DNA of 64,000 bases from Desulfobacterales bacterium. GTDB taxonomy: Bacteria; Desulfobacterota; Desulfobacteria; Desulfobacterales; SpSt-501. The first letter of the stretch is position 1, and the number at the start of each line of letters is the position of its first letter. The DNA lies in the NCBI GenBank assembly GCA_030834695.1, contig JAUQXK010000116.1, forward strand, positions 1 to 64,000. The letters run 5' to 3'. The translations under genes were made by a program, and so were the position numbers. Of the stretch, positions 335-13,461 are shown one piece after another. The notes below the pieces were generated by a model that saw nothing but the letters and a program-made list of their open reading frames with translations, had not been told where the DNA came from and did not search any database.

Positions 335-1489
335 TCAATAGTTTGCCTCCAGAATCCCGATGACCTCCTGCTCGGTGACCGTGCGCGGGTTGTTGCTGAT
401 CAGGCGCACTGCGCCCACCGTGGTCTTGGCCAGGGCCGGGAACTCCTCCCGCGGAACGCCGTAGCTGCTGAGTCGATAGGAGATCCCCAGGTCGTCGAGC
501 AGGTTTTTGACCGCCTTGACCGCGAGCCGGGCGGCCTGAACTTCCGGCATTCGCCTGGTTTTCTCCCCGAACGCCTTAGCGATTTCGACGTATTTGTGCG
601 GGGTGGCGATCAGGTTGTATTCCATCACCCAGGGAAGGATGAAGGCTGTCAGCAATCCGTGCGGCAGGTGGAACTTGCCACCGATGGCGAGCGCCAGCGC
701 GTGGTCCAGGCCGTTCTGGGTGTTGGAGAAGGCCATGCCCGCCAGGCAGGAAGCGTGCAGCATGTTCTCGCGGGCCGCCAAGTTCTGGCCCTGGGCGAAA
801 GCCTGCCGCAGGTTGGCGGCCACCAGCCGGATGGCCTGCAGGTTGAGCGTGTCGGTGAAGACCGTGGCGCGGACGCCTACGAATGACTCGATGGCGTGCA
901 CCAGGGCGTCCATGCCGGTCATGGCCGTCACCCGCGGCGGCAAGGCGAGCGTCAGCTGCGGGTCCAGCAGGGCCGCCCGCGCGAACATGTGCTCGCTGAC
1001 GATGCCCTTCTTGACCTTGTTCTGAGTGTCGGACAGGACACAGATGGAGGTCATCTCGCTGCCGGTGCCGGCCGTGGTGGGGATGAGGATCAGCGGCACC
1101 CCCGGCCGGGGCACCAATTCCATGCCGAAGTATTTATCGATGGGGCCTTCGTTGGCCAGCAGCACCGAGCTGACCTTGGAGATGTCCAGAGCGCTGCCGC
1201 CGCCGAGACCCACAATGACGTCCGGCCCGAAGTCTTTGGCGGCCTTGGCGCCGGCCAGCGCCACTTCCACCCGGGGATCGGGCTCGACCTCGGCAAAGAC
1301 ACTGAAACCGAGGTTGGCCCGTTCGAGCACACCCGTTACCTGATCCAGGACTCCGGCCGACTTGATCCCCGGATCGGTGACGACCAGGACCCGGCTGCCC
1401 TTCACGCGCTTGACCTCATCCGGCAAGCTTTCCACGGCCCCATGCCCGAAGACCACCCGTCGGACGGTTTCGAACGATTGAACCTTCAT
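335..1489 (-). CDS. Iron-containing alcohol dehydrogenase
   Basis: A 384-residue group III (Fe-ADH) oxidoreductase. The N-terminal Rossmann-like half carries GLGGGSALDISK (about residue 95), the NAD(P)-binding motif of the family. The C-terminal helical half carries the metal ligands in GMDALVHAIE and in NGLDHALA...HLPHG. It would interconvert an aldehyde and an alcohol in the cytoplasm with NAD(P)H. A strong GGAGG precedes ATG 1489. It lies 73 bases after an ABC ATPase gene in an apparent operon for an organic nitrogen or sulfonate-like substrate, so it may reduce an aldehyde from that pathway. Sulfoacetaldehyde reductases (SarD) belong to the same family and could be an alternative, but sequence alone does not decide the substrate. 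Confidence 0.9.
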   Translation of the reverse strand: MKVQSFETVRRVVFGHGAVESLPDEVKRVKGSRVLVVTDPGIKSAGVLDQVTGVLERANLGFSVFAEVEPDPRVEVALAGAKAAKDFGPDVIVGLGGGSALDISKVSSVLLANEGPIDKYFGMELVPRPGVPLILIPTTAGTGSEMTSICVLSDTQNKVKKGIVSEHMFARAALLDPQLTLALPPRVTAMTGMDALVHAIESFVGVRATVFTDTLNLQAIRLVAANLRQAFAQGQNLAARENMLHASCLAGMAFSNTQNGLDHALALAIGGKFHLPHGLLTAFILPWVMEYNLIATPHKYVEIAKAFGEKTRRMPEVQAARLAVKAVKNLLDDLGISYRLSSYGVPREEFPALAKTTVGAVRLISNNPRTVTEQEVIGILEANY

Positions 1490-1562: not shown

Positions 1563-2321
1563 TTAGAGCACCAGCTCGGACGCATCGGTAATCTGCTGGC
1601 GGAGCTGAAGGAATTTCATGTCCGTATGCTCCCGCGGTCTCGGCAGCTCGACATCGTAGACCTCATGCATGCGCCCGGGCAATTTCCCCTTCAGGGTGAC
1701 GATGCGATCGCCCAGATAGATCGCTTCATCGATGTTGTTGGTCACGAACAAGACGGTGCGCTTTTCGCTCTCCCAGATGCGAACAGTCTCTTTTTCCATG
1801 AAGTAGCGGGTTTGCGCATCGAGTTGACCGAACGGCTCGTCTAACAACATGACCTTTGGATTGTTGGCGTAAGCCCGGGCGATTCCCACCCGTTGCTTCA
1901 TGCCCCCGCTCAATTGGTGCGGGTAATGTTTTTCAAAACCGTTCAGGCCCACGAGGTCGATGTAGCGCTGGGCGATCCGGCGCCGCTCCGATTTGTCGAC
2001 GCCGTTCAGCATCGGCCCCAGTTCGACATTGCCCATGACCGTTTTCCAGCCGAAGAGCATGTAACTTTGGAAGACCAAGCCGCGGTCGGGCCCCGGTCCG
2101 GCAATCTGTTGACCGTCCAATTTGATCGAACCCTCGTTCGGGGTTTCCAGGCCTGCAATAATGCGCAGCAAGGTGCTTTTCCCGGATTGCCCGGGCCCCA
2201 GGATGACCAGGAATTCCTTGTCCCGGACCTCCAGGCTGATATCCTCCAAAACGTGGACACGCTGCTTGCCCTTTTGGATGAAGAACTTGGTGATGTTCCG
2301 GCATTCGATTTTCGGCGTCAT
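1563..2321 (-). CDS. ABC transporter ATPase, nitrate/sulfonate/taurine type (second of two)
   Basis: A 252-residue ATPase of the SsuB/TauB class that powers import through the membrane subunits encoded just upstream. The Walker A is GPGQSGKST (about residues 42-50), a less usual form of GPSGCGKST that still fits GxxxxGKS/T. The signature is LSGGMKQRVGIARA, followed by Walker B VMLLDEP. The C-terminus has PRPREHTDMKF, typical of the SsuB/TauB class. It starts 31 bases after the second permease stop. The same operon carries another, different ATPase at 5425-6192, so the importer may use two distinct motor subunits. Confidence 0.93.
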   Translation of the reverse strand: MTPKIECRNITKFFIQKGKQRVHVLEDISLEVRDKEFLVILGPGQSGKSTLLRIIAGLETPNEGSIKLDGQQIAGPGPDRGLVFQSYMLFGWKTVMGNVELGPMLNGVDKSERRRIAQRYIDLVGLNGFEKHYPHQLSGGMKQRVGIARAYANNPKVMLLDEPFGQLDAQTRYFMEKETVRIWESEKRTVLFVTNNIDEAIYLGDRIVTLKGKLPGRMHEVYDVELPRPREHTDMKFLQLRQQITDASELVL

Positions 2322-2352
2322 GATTTATCCTCAAGAAATCCGCTTGCCTGGC

Positions 2353-3234
2353 TTACAGGCCGGCAATGTCGCGTTTCCACGGACATAGATACTTTTCCAG
2401 TCCGGCGATCAGCAGAGACGAAAGCCAGGCTACGATGGCGATGATGATCATGCCGCCGATCACCAAGGACGTGTCGGAGATTTTCATGCCCTGCACGATG
2501 ATGAACCCCAGCCCGGAGCGCGAGGCCACCAGCTCTGCCGCCAAAACGCAGGTCCAGGCCATGGAGAGCGAAATCTGCAGCCCGGCGAAGATGGCCGGAA
2601 AGGAGGCCGGAAAGCTCACCTGGATGATTTCGTTCCAGCGTCCTCCGCCTAGTACCTTGACGACGTCGTAAAGCTCCGGTTCGATCAGGCGCATGCCGTT
2701 GTAAGAATTGAGCAGGCAGGGAACGAAAGTACCGATGACGATGATAAAGATTTTGGACGGCTCGCCGATGCCGAACCACAGGATCGAGATCGAAATCCAG
2801 GCGATCGGCGGCATGGGCTTGAAGATGTCGAAAACCGGTTTGACGATGGCGTCCACGTAAGGGTTGAGCGCCATGAACAGTCCCAGGGGGATCGCCAGCG
2901 CCGAGGCCAAGACGAAGCCGATGAAGATACGCTGGGTGCTGGCCCAGATGTGCCCCCAGATCGTGAGCCCTGCCAGGGTATCGGTCATCAGCCCTTGGAA
3001 GCGCTCGACCACCTGCCAGGGAGTGGCGAGGGCACCGGCGAAAAGCCCGCTGACGGCAGCTTGGTGCCACACGAGCAAGAAAGCGGTCATGGACAGCACA
3101 TGGAGCAGGTATTCGTTGGTGACGATGCGCCGGATGGTCAGCGGCTTCTTATCCCGGACCGTCTGCTGGATTTCGTCGGCGATGGAGCTGCCCTGCCGGC
3201 CGAGATCCTGAATGGTTTCCTGAATGTCTGCCAT
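2353..3234 (-). CDS. ABC transporter permease, SsuC/TauC type (second of two)
   Basis: A 293-residue inner-membrane permease. A cytoplasmic N-terminal tail of about 50 residues precedes about six membrane helices. The ATPase-contacting EAA-type loop is visible around VVKVLGGGRWNEIIQVSFPASFPAIFAG. I start it at ATG 3234 because an AGGAGG lies just upstream and because a longer reading (to 3492) would run into the preceding permease gene. Its RBS overlaps the end of that gene, which stops at 3240. It is clearly a different protein from that permease, so the membrane domain is probably a heterodimer. Confidence 0.92.
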   Translation of the reverse strand: MADIQETIQDLGRQGSSIADEIQQTVRDKKPLTIRRIVTNEYLLHVLSMTAFLLVWHQAAVSGLFAGALATPWQVVERFQGLMTDTLAGLTIWGHIWASTQRIFIGFVLASALAIPLGLFMALNPYVDAIVKPVFDIFKPMPPIAWISISILWFGIGEPSKIFIIVIGTFVPCLLNSYNGMRLIEPELYDVVKVLGGGRWNEIIQVSFPASFPAIFAGLQISLSMAWTCVLAAELVASRSGLGFIIVQGMKISDTSLVIGGMIIIAIVAWLSSLLIAGLEKYLCPWKRDIAGL

Positions 3235-3239
3235 GGACG

Positions 3240-4034
3240 CTACCTCCTGATCCCGGCGAGCAATCGCCGTTCCACATAATCGATCAGCACGCCGATTGCG
3301 GCCCCCGCCAGGCCGACGGAGACCATGCCCAGCACGACCAGATCCGGCAAAGCCAGCCGCCGCCCCATGGTGATCAGGTAACCCAGTCCCTGGTCGGCGG
3401 CGAGCAGTTCGGCACCCACCAGGTTGGTCCAGCAGCAGGCAAGCGCGATCTGCAGGGCGCCGAAGACCATCGGCAGAGCGGAAGGGACGCACAAGGTTTT
3501 AAAGATCTGCCAGTCCGAAGCGCCATAGGTCCGGGCCATCTGGATCAGGGTGGGGTTGGTCATGCGCACGCCCACGAAGGCGTTGATTACACAGGGGACG
3601 ACCCCGCCGAGCCAGATGATGAAAACCTTGCCCCCCAGGCCGATACCGAACCAGAAAATGGTCAGCGGGATCCAGGCGATGGGCGGGATCGGGCGGATCA
3701 ATTCAAACAACGGTCGGGCAATGCCGCGCACCACCCCGAACCAGCCCATGAAGAGACCCAGAGGCAGCCCAATCCCCAGTGCCAGCAGGTAGCCTATAAA
3801 GGCTTCCTGGGCGCTCACCCATGCATGTATAAAGATGGTGGCACCGTCCGGGTTCGGGTCGCTGAGCTTGGTGACGAACAGGCTGCCCACCTGGGTGGGG
3901 GCGGCCAGCATGGTCTTCGGCACGACGTCGAGCTGCACCATCAACTCCCACACGACGAAAAAAGTCAGCACGCTCAGGATGGGCAGCAGGATCAAGCTCA
4001 ACGGTTTCTTTACTTTTACTTCTTCGTACGCCAT
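3240..4034 (-). CDS. ABC transporter permease, SsuC/TauC type (first of two)
   Basis: A 264-residue binding-protein-dependent permease with about six hydrophobic segments. The EAA-type loop is around ARTYGASDWQIFKTLCVPSALPMVFGALQ, and PIPPIAWIPLTIFWFGIG is typical of nitrate/sulfonate/bicarbonate importers. ATG 4034 has GGGAG upstream. It follows the binding-protein gene after 140 bases that contain a long GC hairpin, and it is followed 5 bases later by the second permease, so translation of the two is probably coupled. Confidence 0.92.
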   Translation of the reverse strand: MAYEEVKVKKPLSLILLPILSVLTFFVVWELMVQLDVVPKTMLAAPTQVGSLFVTKLSDPNPDGATIFIHAWVSAQEAFIGYLLALGIGLPLGLFMGWFGVVRGIARPLFELIRPIPPIAWIPLTIFWFGIGLGGKVFIIWLGGVVPCVINAFVGVRMTNPTLIQMARTYGASDWQIFKTLCVPSALPMVFGALQIALACCWTNLVGAELLAADQGLGYLITMGRRLALPDLVVLGMVSVGLAGAAIGVLIDYVERRLLAGIRR

Positions 4035-4131
4035 CTCATATCTCCCTGCGGAGCGGTTTCAAAACCTCCCTCGGCAATCCGCGGTTTCCGATGCCGCGGC
4101 AGACGAAGCTCTACGGCGGCGGTCGGAGTCG

Positions 4132-4163
4132 CCGGCCGGGATGAGACGTTCCATCCCGGCCGG
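4132..4163 (-). terminator. Intercistronic stem-loop after binding-protein gene
   Basis: A perfect 12-bp GC-rich stem (4132-4143 with 4152-4163) and an 8-base loop lie just after the binding-protein stop on the transcribed strand. No U-run follows, so it is more likely an mRNA-protecting or partial-termination hairpin than a full terminator. Its position between a binding protein and its permease recurs in two other ABC operons in this window. Confidence 0.6.
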
Positions 4164-4174
4164 TTTGCCGATTC

Positions 4175-5260
4175 CTACAGGTCGTCTGTCGGAATGGGAG
4201 TTTTCACCATCTTGAGGAACTTGTCGGTCACGTAAGCGGAATCTTTGACCTTTGCGAATTCATCCGGCTTGAAACGGCCCTGAGCCGTGAAGAATTCGGC
4301 AATCAGGCTTTGCCACTTCGCTGCCGTGCTCATGCCCTTGGATGAATCGAATAGCTTGAGCTGCTCTTCCAGGGTCCAGACCGGGTGGGTGTCGATGTCC
4401 AGCTTGCACATCTCCGGGGTCATATCCATGCCGCCCCAGTCCTTCATGAACTTCTGGTACATCTTGACCACTTCCGGACCGCTGCCGTGCTTCTTGATGT
4501 AGTTGACGCCGCGCAGGTAGACGCGCAGAAACTTGGCCACGACTTCCGGATTCTTGTCGCAAAATTCCTTGTCGCCGATCAGGGTGATCGGAAGGGCGGC
4601 GCCGCACATTTTGAGGTCGGATATCTTCTTGAAACCCTTAGCCTCGGCGGTATAGCAGTAGGGGGCCCACAGCACCGCGATGTCGCCGACGCCTTTTTCA
4701 AAGGCCGCCATGGCCGAAGCCTGGTCCATCTGCTTGACCACCACGTCGCTGTCCTTCAGCCCCAGTACTTTCAGCCAGGTGCTCATGGCATAGTGGACGG
4801 ACGAAACGGTGGTGACCAGGATGGTCTTGCCCTTGACGGTTTCGGGCGAGCCGTAGACTTCGGGGAATTCCTTGTTGAACCCTTTCACCTTCAGAATGGG
4901 GCTGTCGGCGCGGACGTAGACGTTGTTGGTGATGGACTCGTCGTCACCCAACCCGAACTGGTAGGCGCCGTAGCGCAGGGCTCCGACCACCTGGGGAACG
5001 CCGCCGGTGGCCCCCAGCACCCACTGCTTGGCCGGCAGGGCCTCCATCTGAGCCATGCCCGAATCGAAGAAGAGCAGCTCCAGATCCAGGCCTTCCTGCT
5101 TGTCCCAGCCCTTCTGCTTGGCCAGCCAGGGGAGGAATGTTTCAAATTCCGGCATCCAGCAGGTCTTGAGCTTCATGGGTGCCTGAGCCTGGGCCGGTGT
5201 GAAGGAACACACCAAGAGAGCAGCCAGAACCAACACACTGAACAAAGCGAACTTTTTCAT
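4175..5260 (-). CDS. ABC transporter substrate-binding protein, SsuA/TauA/NMT1-like
   Basis: A 361-residue exported protein. ATG 5260 (AAGGAG upstream) begins a clear signal peptide: MKKF, a hydrophobic core, then FTPAQAQA as the likely cleavage site. The mature part starts KLKTCWMPEFETFLPWLAKQ, typical of type 2 binding proteins for nitrate, sulfonates or similar compounds. It should deliver substrate in the periplasm to the two permeases below it. It is the only binding protein of the operon. The substrate cannot be read from sequence; the surrounding amine-oxidation genes suggest an organic amine or amino-sulfonate. Confidence 0.9.
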   Translation of the reverse strand: MKKFALFSVLVLAALLVCSFTPAQAQAPMKLKTCWMPEFETFLPWLAKQKGWDKQEGLDLELLFFDSGMAQMEALPAKQWVLGATGGVPQVVGALRYGAYQFGLGDDESITNNVYVRADSPILKVKGFNKEFPEVYGSPETVKGKTILVTTVSSVHYAMSTWLKVLGLKDSDVVVKQMDQASAMAAFEKGVGDIAVLWAPYCYTAEAKGFKKISDLKMCGAALPITLIGDKEFCDKNPEVVAKFLRVYLRGVNYIKKHGSGPEVVKMYQKFMKDWGGMDMTPEMCKLDIDTHPVWTLEEQLKLFDSSKGMSTAAKWQSLIAEFFTAQGRFKPDEFAKVKDSAYVTDKFLKMVKTPIPTDDL

Positions 5261-5424
5261 CTCACAGCTCCTTTTTGACATAGGGGGGGGGTTGTCTTGT
5301 TCCGTACTGCACACCACACTGGGTCCGGACTGGGCCCGGACCCTTTCGGTATCACTTTCCGGCGAGGCACCTCCTTGGGTTGGGATTTGCTGTCGTCAGC
5401 CGCCCTCGCGGGTCGGCTCCACCT

Positions 5425-6192
5425 TTACCACCATCGAATCAGTTCCGTGACGTGTTTGCGGATGGCGACGAAATCCGGATCGATTAAGCTGCGGGGTCTG
5501 GGCAGGTCGACGTTCACCTCCGCTTTGATGTTGGTCGGCTTGTTGCTCAGCACCAGAATCCGCTCGGCCACATACACAGCCTCTTCGATGTTGTGGGTAA
5601 CGAAGATGACCGTGCTTTTTAACGTCTGCCAGAGTTTTACGAGCTCATCCTCCAGGTAATAGCGCAATTTGACATCCAGCTGTCCGTACGGTTCGTCCAT
5701 CAGCAGCAGGTCGGGGTCCACGGCAAAGGCCCGGGCGACGGTGATGCGTTGGACCATGCTGGCGGAGACCTGGTTGGGATAGAGGCTCTGAGTCTCCGTG
5801 AGCCCGACCAGGTCCAGCATGAAATCAACCCGCTCGTTGATTTTTGCGGCGGGGAAGCCCTTGATCTGCATTCCGTAGGCCACATTCTGGCGGACGGTCC
5901 GCCACGGCAGGCAGGTCGGCTCCTGGAACACGAAGGAAATGTTGTGCCGCTTGGGGTCCGCGACCTCGCCATCGATGAAAATATTGCCTTCACTGGTGGG
6001 GATGAGTTTGGAAAGGCAATTGAGAAAGGTGGTCTTGCCGCAGCCCGTCGGACCGACGATGGCCAGGAATTCGCCCTGGGCGACATGGAAATTGATGCGG
6101 TTCAGCACCAGGAGATCGCCGAATCGCTTGGTCAGGTTCTTGACTTCGATTTTGACTTGTTTCGTGTCCGGTTTCAGGGCTGCAACTTGCAA
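5425..6192 (-). CDS. ABC transporter ATPase, nitrate/sulfonate/taurine type (first of two)
   Basis: A 255-residue ATPase with Walker A GPTGCGKTT, Q-loop FVFQEP, Walker B LLLMDEP and switch FVTHNI. The signature is VSASMVQRITVARA, in which the usual LSGGM/Q is replaced by VSASM; this weakens the canonical LSGGQ motif and may make this the degenerate partner of an asymmetric ATPase pair. I chose the TTG at 6192 as start because AAGGAG lies 6 bases upstream and gives the usual family length; longer readings run into the aldehyde dehydrogenase gene. The C-terminal DLPRPRSLIDPDFV is typical of SsuB/TauB-like subunits. Confidence 0.9.
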   Translation of the reverse strand: MQVAALKPDTKQVKIEVKNLTKRFGDLLVLNRINFHVAQGEFLAIVGPTGCGKTTFLNCLSKLIPTSEGNIFIDGEVADPKRHNISFVFQEPTCLPWRTVRQNVAYGMQIKGFPAAKINERVDFMLDLVGLTETQSLYPNQVSASMVQRITVARAFAVDPDLLLMDEPYGQLDVKLRYYLEDELVKLWQTLKSTVIFVTHNIEEAVYVAERILVLSNKPTNIKAEVNVDLPRPRSLIDPDFVAIRKHVTELIRWW

Positions 6193-6265
6193 GGTGCGCT
6201 CCTTATCCTGCAGGATCAAAAGGTGCCGAATATTTTCAGCTACGACACAGCAGCTAAACTGCGTT

Positions 6266-7825
6266 TCAACTGGCCGTGCAGCTTTTGACGGCGCTGGTTT
6301 TTGGCCCTGAAGCTTCTTTCGAAGCGTCGGCCGTGAGTCGGCCGGCGGCCGGCTGTGCGAAGCGCACGGTGGCGACCTTGTTCTGGGTGAAAAAGTCGAT
6401 GCCGTCCCTGCCCTGGGCCTTGTCGGTGCCGACCAGGGACTGCTTGATGCCCCCGAAAGGCAGGTAGGGGTGCGGAGCCGGCACGCCCACGTTGACGCCC
6501 ACCATGCCAACATCGGCTTCGGCGATGAATTTTTCAGTATAGTACAGGTTCTGCGTGAAGATGCAGGCGCCGTTGCCCACCTCCTGGGCGCGGATGAGCC
6601 GCAGCGCATGGTCGAGGTTCTCAACCTTGATCACCGCCGCCACCGGCCCGAAGATTTCGGTCTGCACGATGCTCATCTCCGGGGTGGCCTCGGTGAAGAT
6701 GGTCGGGCCGACATAATATCCGCCCTTGATCTCGGGCGGCACCTCGGGGTTGCGCCCGTCCAATACCAGCTTGGCTTTATCCTGACGGACACCGACATCG
6801 ATGCAGCGCTCGATGCGGGCCCTGGCATCGGCGGAGATGACCGGTCCGATGTGGATGTTCGGGTCAAGGGCGCTGCCCACTTTCATTTTCCTGGAGGCCG
6901 CGACGATGCGCTCCACCAGCTCGTCGTGGATTTCCGGCACGGCAGCTACAATCGAGCCGGCCAGACACCGCTGACCGGCGGAACCGTAGCAGGAGTTGAG
7001 GTAGTTCTCGATGAACAGATCCCACGGCAGGTCCTCCATGGCCACCAGGTAGTTCTTGGCCCCGCCCAGCAGCATGGTGCGTTTTCCGGCGCGGCCGGCG
7101 GCCTCCGCGATCTTACGGGCCGTGGGCGAGGAGCCGACCATGCAGATGCCGCGCACCCGCGGGTCGTCGTACCAGGCCGCGGTCGGAACATGGTCGCCGT
7201 TAACCACGTTGATTACCCCTGGCGGCAGCCCGATCTGGCTGAAAATGTCGCACATTTTCTGCATGAAGTAGGGTGACTGGGGGGAAGGTTTGAAGACGAA
7301 CGTGTTGCCGACACCGATGGCAAAGGGAATGAACCAGCCGAAGACGAGCGCCGGGAAGTTGAAGGGGGCCACCCCGCAGAAGACACCCAGGGGCTGGCGC
7401 ACCACCCGGCCAACGATATTGGCGCCGATGTTTTCCAGCGTCTCGCCCTGGATCAGGGTCGGAATGCTGCAAGCGGTCTCGATGATTTCGATGACCCGCT
7501 GGACCTCCCCGCGCGCCTCGCTGATGTGCTTGGCCTGATCGATGGCGATGGAATGGGCCAGTTCCTCGCGGCGATCTTCCATGGCCCGGCGCATGTCAAA
7601 GAGATATTTCACCCGCCGGCCGATGGGTTGTCGGCGCCATTCGTCGTAGGCGCGGTGACACGAGGCGATGGCCGTTGTGGAGGCCTCCGCCGTGCTGAGC
7701 GGAACTTCGCCGATCTGCTTGCCGTCGGAAGGGTTGAAGAGCGGAATCGTCTTGGCCCCGGCTTCATCCGTCCACTTGCCGTCGATGTAGTTCCGTATGC
7801 GGATCAACTCTGGTGTCGCTGTCAT
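6266..7825 (-). CDS. mmsA: CoA-acylating (methyl)malonate-semialdehyde dehydrogenase-like enzyme
   Basis: A 519-residue aldehyde dehydrogenase of the MmsA subgroup. The nucleophile is the Cys of GSAGQRC (about residue 287). The position of the general-base Glu of hydrolytic aldehyde dehydrogenases reads LLGGAKNY, the Asn-containing form seen in MMSDH, which releases its product as acyl-CoA. PFNFPALVFGWFIPFAIG is also MmsA-like. It likely turns malonate semialdehyde, methylmalonate semialdehyde or a related aldehyde into acetyl- or propionyl-CoA with NAD+. ATG 7825 has AGAGG upstream. It is first in the minus-strand operon, facing the divergent amine-oxidase operon. The exact aldehyde is unknown; a sulfoacetaldehyde or other acylating dehydrogenase is possible. 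Confidence 0.85.
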   Translation of the reverse strand: MTATPELIRIRNYIDGKWTDEAGAKTIPLFNPSDGKQIGEVPLSTAEASTTAIASCHRAYDEWRRQPIGRRVKYLFDMRRAMEDRREELAHSIAIDQAKHISEARGEVQRVIEIIETACSIPTLIQGETLENIGANIVGRVVRQPLGVFCGVAPFNFPALVFGWFIPFAIGVGNTFVFKPSPQSPYFMQKMCDIFSQIGLPPGVINVVNGDHVPTAAWYDDPRVRGICMVGSSPTARKIAEAAGRAGKRTMLLGGAKNYLVAMEDLPWDLFIENYLNSCYGSAGQRCLAGSIVAAVPEIHDELVERIVAASRKMKVGSALDPNIHIGPVISADARARIERCIDVGVRQDKAKLVLDGRNPEVPPEIKGGYYVGPTIFTEATPEMSIVQTEIFGPVAAVIKVENLDHALRLIRAQEVGNGACIFTQNLYYTEKFIAEADVGMVGVNVGVPAPHPYLPFGGIKQSLVGTDKAQGRDGIDFFTQNKVATVRFAQPAAGRLTADASKEASGPKTSAVKSCTAS

Positions 7826-8079
7826 CAATGACCTCTCGGCTGGGTGCCCCGGGACGGTCTCTGCCCGGGCGGTTTAGGGATAGATCTTGTTTTGATCGGA
7901 AAAAATAGCGAGTGCTGGGGAGGAAATGCGGGTGCTTGACCGGCGGAATCCACCTTTTGGAAAGGCATCCCATGGCAGATATCGAAATCAAGCGCTGCCA
8001 TTCTTCGAACCATCCTGTTCAGGCTTCCGATGACAACTCGGCTCCACGACACGTTCCGGATGAGCAATCGAATCCAAAT

Positions 8080-8103
8080 TGATATGTGATATATCAGATA
8101 TCA
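8080..8103. promoter_or_regulatory. 24-bp near-perfect palindrome, candidate operator 1
   Basis: A 24-base inverted repeat in which all but one mirrored base pair match. Its core is TGATATATCA (8087-8096). The same core recurs at 8197-8206, with centres exactly 110 bp apart. It lies in the divergent control region of the amine regulon and is a good candidate site for the GntR protein encoded at 12793-13461. Confidence 0.6.
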
Positions 8104-8193
8104 GAAAGAGGGGTCAAGAAGTTTTTGGGGCCACCCGGGCCGGTTTCAACCCTTCAGCGCGATGTGAAAACGTCTTCTTGACAACCATGATGG

Positions 8194-8209
8194 ATCTGAT
8201 ATATCAGAT
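8194..8209. promoter_or_regulatory. 16-bp perfect palindrome, candidate operator 2
   Basis: ATCTGATATATCAGAT is a perfect inverted repeat and shares the 10-base core TGATATATCA with the site at 8080-8103. The spacing of 110 bp is close to a whole number of helical turns, which would let one dimer pair bridge both sites. Confidence 0.6.
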
Positions 8210-8493
8210 TCCAATAAGACCGGATACGACCGGCTCCATCGATCCACCCATTTGTTTCGGTCCGCCATGCAAGATTCCGGACGGGCAATTCATCTTCCAG
8301 ACCTTATGACCGGTTCGACCCGTCAGGATCCTTTCATTTTATCCATTGTTACTCCGGCCGTAGAATATGGCAGATTCGGGTATGTCATTCATCCCGCCGG
8401 GCCACGGCTCAAGTTGCACCGATTCACTCATCGGGGCAATAACCACATGCCCTTGCCATTCGATCAACCATCCGTGCTTAACCAGGAGGTATC

Positions 8494-10938
8494 ATGACCC
8501 AGCAGCTCCCTACCCATGCCCGAATCGTTATCATCGGCGGCGGCATCGTCGGCTGCAGCACCGCCTATCACCTGACTCAGATCGGCCATACCGATGTCGT
8601 GCTCCTGGAGCGCAAGGAGCTCGGGTGCGGGACGACCTGGGCGGCCGCCGGCTTGGTGGCCCAGCTCCGGCAGAACCGCGAGATGACCAACCTCGCCAAG
8701 TACGCGACCCAACTCTATCCGGCACTGGAGGCCGAGACCGGTGTCGCCACCGGCTACGTGACGACCGGGGCGCTGGGCGTCTGCCAGACCGAAGACCGGC
8801 GCCGCGAATGGCTGCGGGGCTCTGCCATGGCCAGCGCCTTCGGGATCGAGATGACCGAAATCAGCCTCAAAGAGGCCGAGGACATGGTCCCGGGCCTGAG
8901 CACCCAGGGGCTGGTGTCCGTTTTTTATCTGCCCAACGACGGGCAGACCAATCCCCTGGATACCACCCGCGCCTTGATAACGGGAGCGCGCATGCGCGGG
9001 ACCAAGGTATTCGAAGATACGGCGGTAACCGACATCAAGGTAAAAAAGGGGGCTGTCTGCGGCGTCTCAACCGAGCACGGGGACATCGGCTGCGAAGTCG
9101 TGATCAATTGCGCCGGCATCTGGGGCCGGGATGTCGGCAAAATGGCCAATGTCAGCGTCCCGCTCTATGCGGCCGAGCACATGCATGCCGTCACCCAGCC
9201 GATCAAGGGGCTTAAGAAGATCTTCCCCTGCGTGCGCGACTTTGACGGCCGCACCTATTTCAAGGCCGAAAACGGCGCTATCCTCTTCGGCGGGTTCGAG
9301 GCACTGGCCAAACCCTGGGGGATGAAAGGCATACCGAAGGATTTCAAATTCACCGAGCTCTCCGAGGACTGGGAACAGTTCAGCCCCTTCATGGAGTGCG
9401 GCCTGCAGCGCTTCCCGGACCTGGAGACGGCCGAGATCCGGCACCTCTCCAATGTGCCCGAAAGCTTCACCCCAGACAATGCCTTCATGGTCGGCGAAGC
9501 GCCGGGCATCAAGAATTTCTTCGTGGGCTGCGGCATGAACTCGGTCGGCATCGCCAGCGCAGCGGGTTGCGGCCGAGCGCTGGCTCAATGGGTCGATCAA
9601 GGCTATCCCGAGGAGCAGCTGTGGCCTGTCGATATCCGTCGCTATTTCCACTGGCAGATGAACACCCGCTATGTGCACGACCGCGTGAAAGAGACCGTGG
9701 GCATCCTGTACGAACACCACTATCCCAACCGCCAGCGCACGACCGCCCGTCCGGTCATCTGCTCCCCCTTCCACGACCGGCTGGCCAGGCACGGGGCCTG
9801 CTTCAGCATGCTCGCCGGCTGGGAGCGAGCCGACTGGTTCGCTCCGCCGAGCGTCGAACCGGTTCATACATACAGCTGGGGTCGAGCCAACTGGTTCCCC
9901 TGCCAGAAGGAAGAACATCTGGCCGTGCGGGATACCGTGGGCATGTACGACCTGACTTCGATGCACAACTACCTCGTCCAGGGACCCGATGCGGAGGCCG
10001 TTCTGCAGAAAATTTGTGCGAACGACGTGGCCGTGCCGGCGGGGACGGTGGTCTACACCCCGATCCTGAACGATCACGGCGGGTTTGAGTCCGACCTGAC
10101 CGTTACGCGCTTTTCGGAAGACTCTTTTTTCATCGTGACCGCGTTGGGAACGGGGGTGAGGGACTTCGATTACATCCAGCGCCGCATCCCGGAGAGTGCC
10201 CGCGCCACCATCACGGATGTCACCCATGGCTACGCCATGCTGGCGGTCATGGGGCCGAATGCCCGCAACCTGCTGGCAACGCTCACCGCTGCCGATCTTT
10301 CCAACGCGGCCTTTCCATTCCGGACCGCCCGGCAGATCGATCTGGGCTATGCCCGGCCCTGGGCGTTGCGCGTGACCTATGTCGGCGAGCTGGGCTGGGA
10401 GCTCTACATTCCGACCGGGTTTGCGGTCCCGGTTTTCGACGCCGTCATGGAAGCCGGGAAGAAATTCGGCTTGCGGCTGGTCGGCATGCAGGCGGTGAAT
10501 TCGCTGCGCATGGAAAGTGGCTACCGCCACTGGGAGACCGAAATCGGCCCGGAGGACAGCCCTTACGAAGCCGGGCTCGGTTTCTGCGTCAACCTCGACA
10601 AGGGCGATTTCATCGGCCGCGAGGCGCTGCTGCGGCAGAAGGAAAAAGGCATCACCCGCAAGCTCGCCATCTTCACGCTGGAGGACCACGAACCCCTGCT
10701 GCTGCGAAGCGAGCCGATTTTCCGCAACGGAGAGCACGTGTCCGAGGTCACTTCCGGTGCTTACGCGTTCAAGCTGGGCAGCTCCATCGGCATGGGATAC
10801 CTGCGCCAGCCCGACGGCATCACCAACGACTGGGTCCTCTCTGGTACGTATGAAATTCTGGTGGAAGGTAAGAAATACCCGGCCCGGGTCCATTTGAAAT
10901 CGCCTTATGACCCTAAAAACGAGCGTCCGAAAATGTAG
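8494..10938 (+). CDS. Dimethylglycine/sarcosine dehydrogenase-like FAD oxidoreductase with GcvT domains
   Basis: An 814-residue two-part enzyme. Residues 9-380 form a DAO-type FAD domain with dinucleotide motif IVIIGGGIVGCSTAYHL. A short FAO_M linker follows, then GcvT (about 440-690) and GcvT C-terminal barrel domains, the folate-binding half that traps formaldehyde as methylene-tetrahydrofolate in this family. The expected reaction is oxidative N-demethylation of a secondary or tertiary amine, passing electrons to ETF. ATG 8494 has AGGAGG upstream. Unusually, the position of the flavin-linking His of mammalian family members (TTWHAAGL) reads TTWAAAGL (Ala50), so FAD is probably bound non-covalently. 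etfB and etfA follow directly, supporting a dehydrogenase rather than an oxidase. The precise substrate is not known. Confidence 0.88.
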   Translation: MTQQLPTHARIVIIGGGIVGCSTAYHLTQIGHTDVVLLERKELGCGTTWAAAGLVAQLRQNREMTNLAKYATQLYPALEAETGVATGYVTTGALGVCQTEDRRREWLRGSAMASAFGIEMTEISLKEAEDMVPGLSTQGLVSVFYLPNDGQTNPLDTTRALITGARMRGTKVFEDTAVTDIKVKKGAVCGVSTEHGDIGCEVVINCAGIWGRDVGKMANVSVPLYAAEHMHAVTQPIKGLKKIFPCVRDFDGRTYFKAENGAILFGGFEALAKPWGMKGIPKDFKFTELSEDWEQFSPFMECGLQRFPDLETAEIRHLSNVPESFTPDNAFMVGEAPGIKNFFVGCGMNSVGIASAAGCGRALAQWVDQGYPEEQLWPVDIRRYFHWQMNTRYVHDRVKETVGILYEHHYPNRQRTTARPVICSPFHDRLARHGACFSMLAGWERADWFAPPSVEPVHTYSWGRANWFPCQKEEHLAVRDTVGMYDLTSMHNYLVQGPDAEAVLQKICANDVAVPAGTVVYTPILNDHGGFESDLTVTRFSEDSFFIVTALGTGVRDFDYIQRRIPESARATITDVTHGYAMLAVMGPNARNLLATLTAADLSNAAFPFRTARQIDLGYARPWALRVTYVGELGWELYIPTGFAVPVFDAVMEAGKKFGLRLVGMQAVNSLRMESGYRHWETEIGPEDSPYEAGLGFCVNLDKGDFIGREALLRQKEKGITRKLAIFTLEDHEPLLLRSEPIFRNGEHVSEVTSGAYAFKLGSSIGMGYLRQPDGITNDWVLSGTYEILVEGKKYPARVHLKSPYDPKNERPKM

Positions 10939-10988: not shown

Positions 10989-11783
10989 ATGATGAACGTG
11001 GTTGTTTTGTTGAAGCAGGTGCCGGACACGGAATCTCTGATCGAGATCAATGCCGAGGCCAGTGACATCCAGACGGACAACCTGAAATGGATCATGAATC
11101 CCTACGACGAACTGGCCGTCGAAGAGGGGATCCGAATCCGGGAAAAGATGGGGAACGGGAAGGTCACCGTTCTCAGCCTCGGCCCGGAGCGGGCGACGGC
11201 GGCGATTCGCACGGCCCTGGCCATGGGCGCCGACGAGGGGGTGTTGATCAACGACCCGGCATTGGAAAAACCAGACCCGCTTACCACCGCCAAGGTGCTG
11301 GCGGCGGCGCTGAAAGCCGTCCCATTCGACCTGATCATCGCCGGCCAGCGCGCCGTGGATGACGACAGCTACCTGGTGCCCTCGGCCGTGGCGGAATACT
11401 TGGGCATTCCCATGCTCGGCATGGTCGTGCGCCAGGAGATCACCGGCGGCAAAATTCGATGCGAGCTGTCCCTCCAGGACGGAACCGCGGTGGTCGAGGC
11501 GGATCTTCCGGCGCTTTTAACCACCCAGCGCGGGCTGAATCAGCCCCGCTATGCGTCGCTTCCCAACATCATGAAGGCCAAGAAGAAGCCGCTTGAAACC
11601 AAGAGCCTTGCGGCTCTCGGGCTGGATGCCGCGCAGTTCGGATCCGCCGCACTGAAAACGAGGATCTTTTCGCTCGTCTTCCCGCCTAAACGCAAGGTTT
11701 GCAAAATGATCTCCGGGAAAACGGCTGAAGAAAAAGCGGCGGCGTTGGTCCAAACACTGCGCGAAGAAGCCGGCGTCCTGTGA
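10989..11783 (+). CDS. etfB: Electron transfer flavoprotein beta subunit
   Basis: A 264-residue ETF beta (FixA) protein starting NVVVLLKQVPDTE, with the AMGADEG segment, DLIIAGQRAVDDDS, and the DLPALLTTQRGLNQPRY block shared by the family. It pairs with EtfA to take electrons from the flavoprotein dehydrogenase encoded 50 bases upstream and pass them to a membrane quinone reductase or another acceptor. GGAGGGG precedes an ATGATG pair, so the start may be 10989 or 10992. No ETF:quinone oxidoreductase gene is in the window. Confidence 0.95.
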   Translation: MMNVVVLLKQVPDTESLIEINAEASDIQTDNLKWIMNPYDELAVEEGIRIREKMGNGKVTVLSLGPERATAAIRTALAMGADEGVLINDPALEKPDPLTTAKVLAAALKAVPFDLIIAGQRAVDDDSYLVPSAVAEYLGIPMLGMVVRQEITGGKIRCELSLQDGTAVVEADLPALLTTQRGLNQPRYASLPNIMKAKKKPLETKSLAALGLDAAQFGSAALKTRIFSLVFPPKRKVCKMISGKTAEEKAAALVQTLREEAGVL

Positions 11784-11808: not shown

Positions 11809-12780
11809 ATGTCAGATGGTATCCTCGTGGTTACCGAAACTGCCGATAAAAAGTTTCGCAAGTCTACCTATGAAGTGCTCAGCGAAGGGCGTCGCCTGGC
11901 CGATCAGTTGAACACGCCGTTGTCCGCCGTGGTGCTGGGGATTGATGTGCTGGCCGCTGCCGACGAACTCAGGCATTATGGCGCCGATCGGGTGCTGGTA
12001 TGCGATGCCCTCGAGTTGGCGGATTTCGACTCGGATCGGTTCACCTTGATTCTATACGATATCATCACGGCGCGGCAGCCGAAGATCGTTCTGTTCGGCG
12101 CCTCCATACGGGACAAGCAACTATCCACCCGCCTAGCGACCAAGCTCGACACCGGATTGGCCATGGAATGTGCGGGGCTGGCACTTGAGGGAGATAACCT
12201 CATCGCCACCCGCTTAATGTACGGCAGCAAACTGATCGCCAAAGTGGCGCTCGAAGGCACGCCCCAGATCGCTGCGTTGCGGCCCAATTTCTTTCCGGCA
12301 ACCATCGCGGAGAAGGCCGGCGAAATCGAGCGCATCGACGTCCAGCTCCCCCCAACGCGGATCCGGCTGATCGAGAAAAAGCCAGGCAGCGCCAAACTGG
12401 ATCTCACCGAAGCCGATGTGGTCGTCTCCGGCGGGCGCGGCATGGGCGGGCCGGACTTCAGTGTGCTCGAATCCTTGGCGGGGGTGTTGGGCGGCGTGGT
12501 GGGCGCAACACGCAGCGCTGTGGACGAAGGCTGGCGTCCGCACGCCGACCAGGTGGGGCAGACAGGCAAGGTCGTGTCGCCTAAGCTGTATGTGGCATGC
12601 GGGATCTCGGGAGCCATTCAGCACATCGCCGGCATGTCTTCCTCCGGCTGCATCGTGGCCGTCAATAAGGACCCGGATGCGCCCATTTTCCGTTATGCCG
12701 ACTACGGCATCGTCGGCAACCTTTACGAGGTGGTTCCGGAGATCAGCCGGGAAATCCAGAAACGGAACGAAACGCGATAA
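11809..12780 (+). CDS. etfA: Electron transfer flavoprotein alpha subunit
   Basis: A 323-residue ETF alpha (FixB). The C-terminal FAD domain has the full family series: GGRGMGGPDF, GATRSAVDEGW, QVGQTGK, GISGAIQH and NKDPDAPIF. The N-terminal half is the variable ETF domain. It starts 25 bases after etfB behind GGAAGGAG and forms the electron-carrying heterodimer with EtfB. The next gene, a GntR regulator, starts 12 bases downstream, so all four genes from 8494 look co-transcribed. Confidence 0.96.
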   Translation: MSDGILVVTETADKKFRKSTYEVLSEGRRLADQLNTPLSAVVLGIDVLAAADELRHYGADRVLVCDALELADFDSDRFTLILYDIITARQPKIVLFGASIRDKQLSTRLATKLDTGLAMECAGLALEGDNLIATRLMYGSKLIAKVALEGTPQIAALRPNFFPATIAEKAGEIERIDVQLPPTRIRLIEKKPGSAKLDLTEADVVVSGGRGMGGPDFSVLESLAGVLGGVVGATRSAVDEGWRPHADQVGQTGKVVSPKLYVACGISGAIQHIAGMSSSGCIVAVNKDPDAPIFRYADYGIVGNLYEVVPEISREIQKRNETR

Positions 12781-12792
12781 GGATAAACGGTT

Positions 12793-13461
12793 ATGATTCC
12801 GCTGGCCTCGTTGCGCGAGCAAATCTATTTATACTTGCGGGGTGAAATTCAGCAGGGGAAGATTGAAGCAGGCGCTTCGATCAACATCGATAAGATGAGC
12901 CGGGAGCTCGGCATCAGCAAGACCCCGCTCAAGGAAGCCATCATCAAGCTTGAGTGCGAGGGGTTCGTTAATTTTCTGCCGCGCCGGGGGGTGCAGGTCC
13001 GGGAACTGTCGCTTCAGGAGCTGAAAAACTACTACGAGATTATCGGCTATCTTGAATCGAGCGTGGTCTTCGCGGTCTTCGATAAATTGAGCCAAGCCGC
13101 TTGCCGGAAACGCCTGAAGCAATCCAACGCCGAACAGAGAAAAGCGCTCAAGCAAAAAGACTATAATCGGTACTATCATCTCAATTTAGAGTTTCACGAT
13201 GTTTTTTTGAACCTGTCCGGCAACCAAACGCTTCATGAGCTGGTTGCTCCGCTCAAGCAACGCTTGTACGACTTCCCGAGAAAGGCCTACTGGGAGGAGT
13301 GGGAGGAGGTCAATCTGCAGGAGCACCGCAAATTTATCGATGCGATTGAAGCCGGCGATCCGTCCGGGGCTGCCGCCGTCATTCGGGACGAACATTGGAG
13401 TTGGCAAAAACACAAACCCTACTTCATTAAGTTTTACAAATTTGATAAACACGAAGAATAA
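12793..13461 (+). CDS. GntR-family transcription regulator, FadR/FCD type
   Basis: A 222-residue regulator. Residues 1-70 form a winged helix with the GntR pattern LREQIYLYLRGEIQQGKIEAG and SRELGISKTPLKEAI. The rest is an FCD ligand domain; the His residues that usually bind a metal are visible in LEFHDVF, LQEHRKF and RDEHW. It is the last gene of the amine-oxidation operon and most likely controls it, acting on the palindromes at 8080-8103 and 8194-8209. Ligand unknown, probably a pathway acid. Start ATG 12793 lies 12 bases after the etfA stop with only a weak GGATAAACGG-type RBS. Confidence 0.9.
   Translation: MIPLASLREQIYLYLRGEIQQGKIEAGASINIDKMSRELGISKTPLKEAIIKLECEGFVNFLPRRGVQVRELSLQELKNYYEIIGYLESSVVFAVFDKLSQAACRKRLKQSNAEQRKALKQKDYNRYYHLNLEFHDVFLNLSGNQTLHELVAPLKQRLYDFPRKAYWEEWEEVNLQEHRKFIDAIEAGDPSGAAAVIRDEHWSWQKHKPYFIKFYKFDKHEE

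Follow-up and report, generated by a model that had tools for sequence, protein, structure and literature searches.

Two palindromes as probable independent operators of an FCD-type GntR regulator in the divergent region of a Desulfobacterales locus

Introduction

Two palindromes with a common core lie between a pair of divergent operons in a Desulfobacterales genome, and the question is whether they work together or separately. A sequence-only reading of the window (the whole stretch of 64,000 nucleotides that was analysed) described the region as an amine control region and proposed a looping repressor, probably the GntR protein encoded at 12793, for both operons. We consider it likely that the palindromes are instead two independent operators of this FCD-GntR (VanR-group) repressor, which would act by promoter occlusion, regulate its own gene and respond to an organosulfonate-derived ligand. 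The genes concerned are:

335..1489, minus strand: iron-containing alcohol dehydrogenase; best NCBIfam model SarD sulfoacetaldehyde reductase, 475.2 bits, below the cut-off of 700
1563..6624, minus strand: ABC transporter of the taurine/sulfonate/nitrate type, with an NMT1-like binding protein, two permeases and two ATPases
6266..7828, minus strand: aldehyde dehydrogenase (MMSDH-like; Pfam Aldedh), first gene of the leftward operon
8494..10938, plus strand: dimethylglycine/sarcosine-dehydrogenase-like flavoprotein with a folate-binding GCV_T domain (Pfam DAO, FAO_M, GCV_T, GCV_T_C)
10989..11783, plus strand: EtfB (Pfam ETF)
11809..12780, plus strand: EtfA (Pfam ETF and ETF_alpha)
12793..13461, plus strand: GntR/FCD regulator, the probable binder (Pfam GntR and FCD), last gene of the rightward operon

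The rightward genes follow each other in the order dehydrogenase, etfB, etfA, gntR, with gaps of 50, 25 and 12 bp. On the leftward side, the best NCBIfam models for the ABC transporter include taurine and aliphatic-sulfonate transporters, all below their cut-offs, and the aldehyde dehydrogenase reaches 438.7 bits with TIGR01722, just below the cut-off of 448.5.

Two palindromes with a rare common core

The two palindromes and their common core, TGATATATCA, were found in the sequence as first described:

8080..8103, no strand: operator 1 (candidate), near-perfect 24-bp palindrome TGATATGTGATATATCAGATATCA with both outer half-boxes; PWM score 35.7 bits
8194..8209, no strand: operator 2 (candidate), perfect 16-bp palindrome ATCTGATATATCAGAT; PWM score 26.4 bits

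Their centres, 8091.5 (one of 12 pairs mismatched) and 8201.5 (none of eight), are exactly 110 bp apart, which also agrees with the first description. A perfect 16-bp palindrome is unremarkable by itself, because the window holds five of them (starting at 8194, 16538, 32979, 43452 and 59506); the last four are unrelated to the operator core. Only one palindrome of 24 bp in the window has no more than a single mismatched pair. The features beyond chance are that the two sites share a core, that this core is rare and that it recurs in relatives. Two copies of the core are present in the window, compared with a mean of 0.01 in 100 shuffles, none of which contained two. The genome of 5,647,560 bp has the core in three places, two of them in the window and the third on another contig (C24), and none for the reversed control; frequent chance occurrence at unrelated loci, which the sequence-only reading had named as a ground for giving up the idea, was thus not seen. 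Allowing up to three mismatches, ATCTGATATATCAGAT is found in 14 places in the genome versus one for the reversed control. Beyond the three core places, its best match, on contig C34, has two mismatches and reaches no more than 5.4 bits when scored against the full motif. Neither the window nor contig C24 matched any Rfam family.

The C24 site stands upstream of an Amidohydro_3 protein, which we take to be of the COG1574 type. It is followed (L039, 11907-12074) by an intrinsic terminator at 12041-12074, about 180 bp before the start of the amidohydrolase, so that transcription could yield a short RNA or a leader subject to attenuation; among 58 relatives, conservation of this leader does not extend past the motif. 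The G+C content of C24 is 0.51, against 0.58-0.59 in three other measured stretches of the genome, and the listed contamination of the assembly is about 5%.

Recurrence of the motif with one clade of GntR regulators

Relatives of the GntR protein were drawn from 58 related genomes and from named public genomes, where the best 80 of 152 candidate loci were used. When upstream regions are compared, the motif recurs near these relatives. In those best 80 of 152 loci, CTGATNNATCAG has 26 copies distributed over 24 loci, and of 12 control palindromes eight gave no copy and four gave one each. The PWM, trained on 29 sites that include those of the window, the C24 site and many from the 80 scanned loci, yielded 87 hits versus one in reversed sequence and placed the extended motif in 54 of the best 80 of 152 loci; the other 26, some of them on short contigs, have no site at the PWM threshold. 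The full form of the operator in relatives is TCTGATA-TCTGATA followed by TATCAGA-TATCAGA. Around sites selected on the core only, 19 of 50 flanks have the outer half-box TGATA at a single fixed offset, and each of the 24 other offsets has it 0-1 times. Scans of the 58 relatives with a 16-mer and two mismatches were discarded, since AT-rich genomes swamped them (48 of 58 hit), and a stricter 19-mer was used instead.

The link to the regulator comes from a sample of 389 genomes of the class, in which membership of the GntR clade was set at E<=1e-40. The strict pattern TCTGATNNATCAGAYATCA is present in 19 genomes, all among the 68 with the clade, and in none of the 321 without it (Fisher p = 4e-16, a value that ignores the relatedness of the genomes). 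Both window sites fail this strict pattern, and the genome of the window is counted through its C24 site. Moreover, the gene downstream of the motif is gntR itself in 20 of 69 genes of at least 200 aa. The earlier choice of the protein at 12793 as the likely binder is well in keeping with these counts.

Sites of this FCD-GntR clade occur in records of Desulfobacterota, Acidobacteriota/Aminicenantes and Synergistota. More distant GntR relatives (37-38% identical) carry CTAATATATCAG and CTGATATATTAG palindromes after TTGACA, upstream of gntR (L050 at about 272 and L052 at about 10401), which suggests an operator type older than the clade.

The GntR regulator and its paralogue

The protein encoded at 12793 belongs to the GntR family, FCD subfamily, with scores above cut-off for both PF00392 (41.7 bits) and PF07729 (66.8 bits). 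In its AlphaFold model (pLDDT 91.5) the linker is followed by six, not seven, effector-domain helices (74-99, 102-120, 124-141, 145-158, 168-186 and 190-201) and two short C-terminal ones, the arrangement that defines the VanR group; the best Foldseek matches are also VanR-type structures (TM-score 0.53-0.64). Some members of this group have a metal site formed by three histidines and an asparagine or aspartate. H135, H178, H201 and N131 are invariant or nearly so among 41 sequences, and N131, H135 and H178 align to D, H and H of TM0439. The protein scores 105.5 bits with PhnR_burk (TIGR03338), below the cut-off of 271.5.

A second member of the clade, 47% identical, is encoded on contig C27 of the same genome (L040, 261-3797), between a class III aminotransferase (Pfam) and an ORF that reads by eye as acetate-kinase-like; a TRAP transporter, also read by eye, is in the neighbourhood, and the locus is likely a taurine locus. 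Its clade and these neighbours would allow the paralogue to be the main binder of the sites, or both proteins to bind. We regard this as unlikely. In the closest relative (G002), where a single clade member reaches E<=1e-40, the operon is retained together with two sites, a dehydrogenase 89% identical and a GntR protein 69% identical. In addition, no operator site was found in the C27 neighbourhood, where the contig begins 260 bp ahead of the first gene. The product of the rightward operon itself is the binder that we prefer.

Position of the sites over candidate promoters

With a threshold of 15 bits there are 74 sites, and at 52 of them a TTGAC starts 22.5-25.5 bp from the dyad, where about two would be expected. 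Since TTGAC precedes the sites at this distance, they cover, as far as sequence can tell, the -10 box of a sigma-70 promoter. By analogy with these 52 sites, the following elements are proposed in the window:

8112..8117, minus strand: candidate -35 box TTGACC for the leftward promoter; the dyad of operator 1 is 25.5 bp from its first base
8088..8093, minus strand: candidate -10 box TATATC, spacer 18, inside operator 1
8178..8183, plus strand: candidate -35 box TTGACA for the rightward promoter; the dyad of operator 2 is 23.5 bp from its first base
8200..8205, plus strand: candidate -10 box TATATC, spacer 16, inside operator 2

Both candidate -35 boxes fall between the two operators, and therefore the operators would mark the -10 regions of two divergent promoters. 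Each site thus has a promoter-like TTGAC of its own, as in double-site divergons with independent sites, and the proposed control of both operons fits this placement. A generic sigma-70 scan of positions 7830-8500 called no promoter, and so neither candidate; its -10 rule, with A fixed at the second position and T at the sixth, rules out TATATC. Between the window sites and the start codons lie 264 and 292 bp, compared with 52 bp for the rightward site of the closest relative, and the C24 site lies 43.5 bp from its TTGAC, compared with the usual distance of about 24.

From the rarity, conservation and promoter placement of the sites, and from their co-occurrence with the GntR clade, we infer binding and repression, not activation, by a ligand-responsive regulator of sulfonate use. 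Operator 1 would overlie the -10 box of the promoter for the aldehyde dehydrogenase and ABC transporter, and operator 2 that of the promoter for dehydrogenase-etfBA-gntR. In the unliganded state, a GntR dimer, or a larger oligomer that touches the outer half-boxes, would sit on each operator and block RNA polymerase; a ligand from the organosulfonate pathway would free it, so that both operons, and gntR itself, are switched on. The sites might alternatively be those of an activator or of another regulator that merely travels with these loci. Their location over the -10 region suits repression, however, and their co-occurrence with this GntR clade is tight, which makes such an alternative very improbable.

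Spacing of the sites and looping

According to the sequence-only reading, the 110 bp between the centres would present both palindromes on the same face of the DNA. The arithmetic gives the opposite: 110/10.5 is 10.48 turns, a half-integer number, so that the sites are 171 degrees apart and on opposite faces. Looping, with a single GntR tetramer joining the two palindromes for cooperative repression of both promoters, has some points in its favour, such as the presence of two strong sites within one divergent region. Its precedent is Atu1419 of Agrobacterium fabrum, a tetrameric regulator that also belongs to the VanR group and for which this mode has been proposed (PMC7797058), with a loop of 190 bp by electron microscopy and a second pair of sites 109 bp apart. 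Moreover, a helical repeat of 11.0 bp would make 110 bp a whole number of turns; it would also bring the 473-bp pair mentioned below into phase, and the pair of the closest relative nearly so.

Against it, at 10.5 bp per turn the sites are out of phase, each already has its own promoter, most loci carry one site only and the distances differ among relatives: 219 bp in the closest one, and 245, 250 and 473 bp at the other double-site loci (the 250-bp pair includes a site of only 12.3 bits, and the 473-bp pair one below threshold). No common helical phase of the double sites was found at 10.4, 10.5, 10.6, 11.0 or 11.2 bp per turn. Looping as originally argued does not survive these comparisons, and we hold it to be improbable in any form. 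With two independent operators, the distance of 110 bp would be the outcome of two promoters set back to back.

The likeness to Atu1419 concerns the VanR-type fold, the palindromic operators, the divergent region and a link to a folate pathway. The Atu1419 operator is ATGTATACAT, with tetramer and loop proven (PMC7797058), whereas here neither a shared helical phase nor a conserved spacing of two sites is seen. The FadR subfamily offers another comparison. In its double-site divergons, as described by Suvorova et al. (2015; PMC4494728), two sites are found per divergent region, each near its own operon, with additional, weaker half-sites at 7-12 nt from the centre of the dyad, and the distance between independent sites increases with intergenic length. 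The present locus is similar in its two sites within a divergent region and in its outer half-sites, at 10.5 nt from the dyad. It differs from the consensus TKGT..ACMA given there in its core TGAT-AT-ATCA, and the GT/AC pairs near the centre are absent, the core being TGATATATCA here and TGAT..ATCA in relatives. The scaling also goes in the wrong direction, for two clear cases only: the sites are 110 bp apart here, where the intergenic region measures 665 bp, and 219 bp apart in the closest relative, where it measures about 410 bp.

Regulon and possible substrate

Genes downstream of the motif were taken from mechanical ORFs, and the 18 of 79 sites lying inside such ORFs were excluded. Family tests covered 47 of the 69 downstream genes, leaving out the 20 gntR genes, L039:12254 and L150:6460. 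Besides gntR, the commonest gene is that of Xsc (sulfoacetaldehyde acetyltransferase), with 17 of the 47 tested; the one match given in detail scores 918 bits against a cut-off of 676. Among the best 80 of 152 loci, 23 have Xsc with at least 60% identity and 10 have the dehydrogenase with at least 50%. Because Xsc is the commonest non-gntR gene behind the motif, this is probably an organosulfonate locus. The label of amine control therefore seems too narrow for a clade tied to Xsc and taurine-type genes, and is better read as probably sulfonate.

In the class sample, 80 of 389 genomes have Xsc above cut-off, and the matches form two score groups, of which the higher-scoring one alone travels with the GntR clade: 37 of the 39 genomes with the long, high-scoring type have the clade, compared with five of the 41 with the other type (the long type was set at E < 1e-250, post hoc, after the bimodal list had been seen). 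The lower-scoring group may have a different role or regulator. The xsc gene of the genome under study is of the long type and lies on contig C89 (L214, 4297-6142), with only a degenerate site upstream (12.2 bits) that stands at the usual distance from a TTGAC, as counted by hand; this may be a weaker target, or a target of the paralogue. Xsc is not an obligate partner, because G002, G003 and G004, the closest relatives, encode the GntR protein but lack an Xsc above cut-off.

The folate-binding dehydrogenase suggests N-demethylation, and therefore N-methyltaurine is a candidate, perhaps, for the substrate of the locus. As a tentative proposal, the unnamed FCD-GntR clade could be a sulfonate regulator with a four-half-site operator, extended in this lineage to a folate-linked demethylating dehydrogenase and EtfAB for the anaerobic use of N-methylated taurines. 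The mode of regulation would be ordinary; the interest lies in a rare, strict operator that marks a regulon linked to Xsc, a desulfonating enzyme, in anaerobes. The motif can be used to find taurine and sulfonate genes, and it leads to a testable prediction of substrate (N-methyltaurine or a relative) for a dimethylglycine-dehydrogenase-like enzyme otherwise annotated as an amine enzyme. Among the papers listed by a search of the open-licence literature for the core string, a GntR regulator of Xsc and N-methyltaurine degradation, none describes such a regulon; the regulators that came up are related but distinct.

Known regulators resemble this system in part. TauR, of the MocR subfamily, also governs genes of the tau/xsc pathway of taurine use, and its regulons hold COG1574 and OppABCDF (PMC5320631). 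These are similar, respectively, to the amidohydrolase on C24 and to a peptide-type ABC transporter next to the gntR studied here. Unlike the protein at 12793, TauR is an activator with a C-terminal aminotransferase-like domain; Pfam gives GntR and FCD only for the former, and its motif is another one. NanR of E. coli is likewise a GntR-type repressor with repeated half-sites in one operator (PMC8012715); its (GGTATA)3 repeats are bound by three dimers, while the sites described here are an inverted repeat with outer copies.

The motif also stands before genes for NAD-type glutamate dehydrogenase (L103, 3091-6072, with a homologue in L126, 822-3701) and, in L114 (2141-3817), before an ETF-quinone oxidoreductase adjoining the dehydrogenase.
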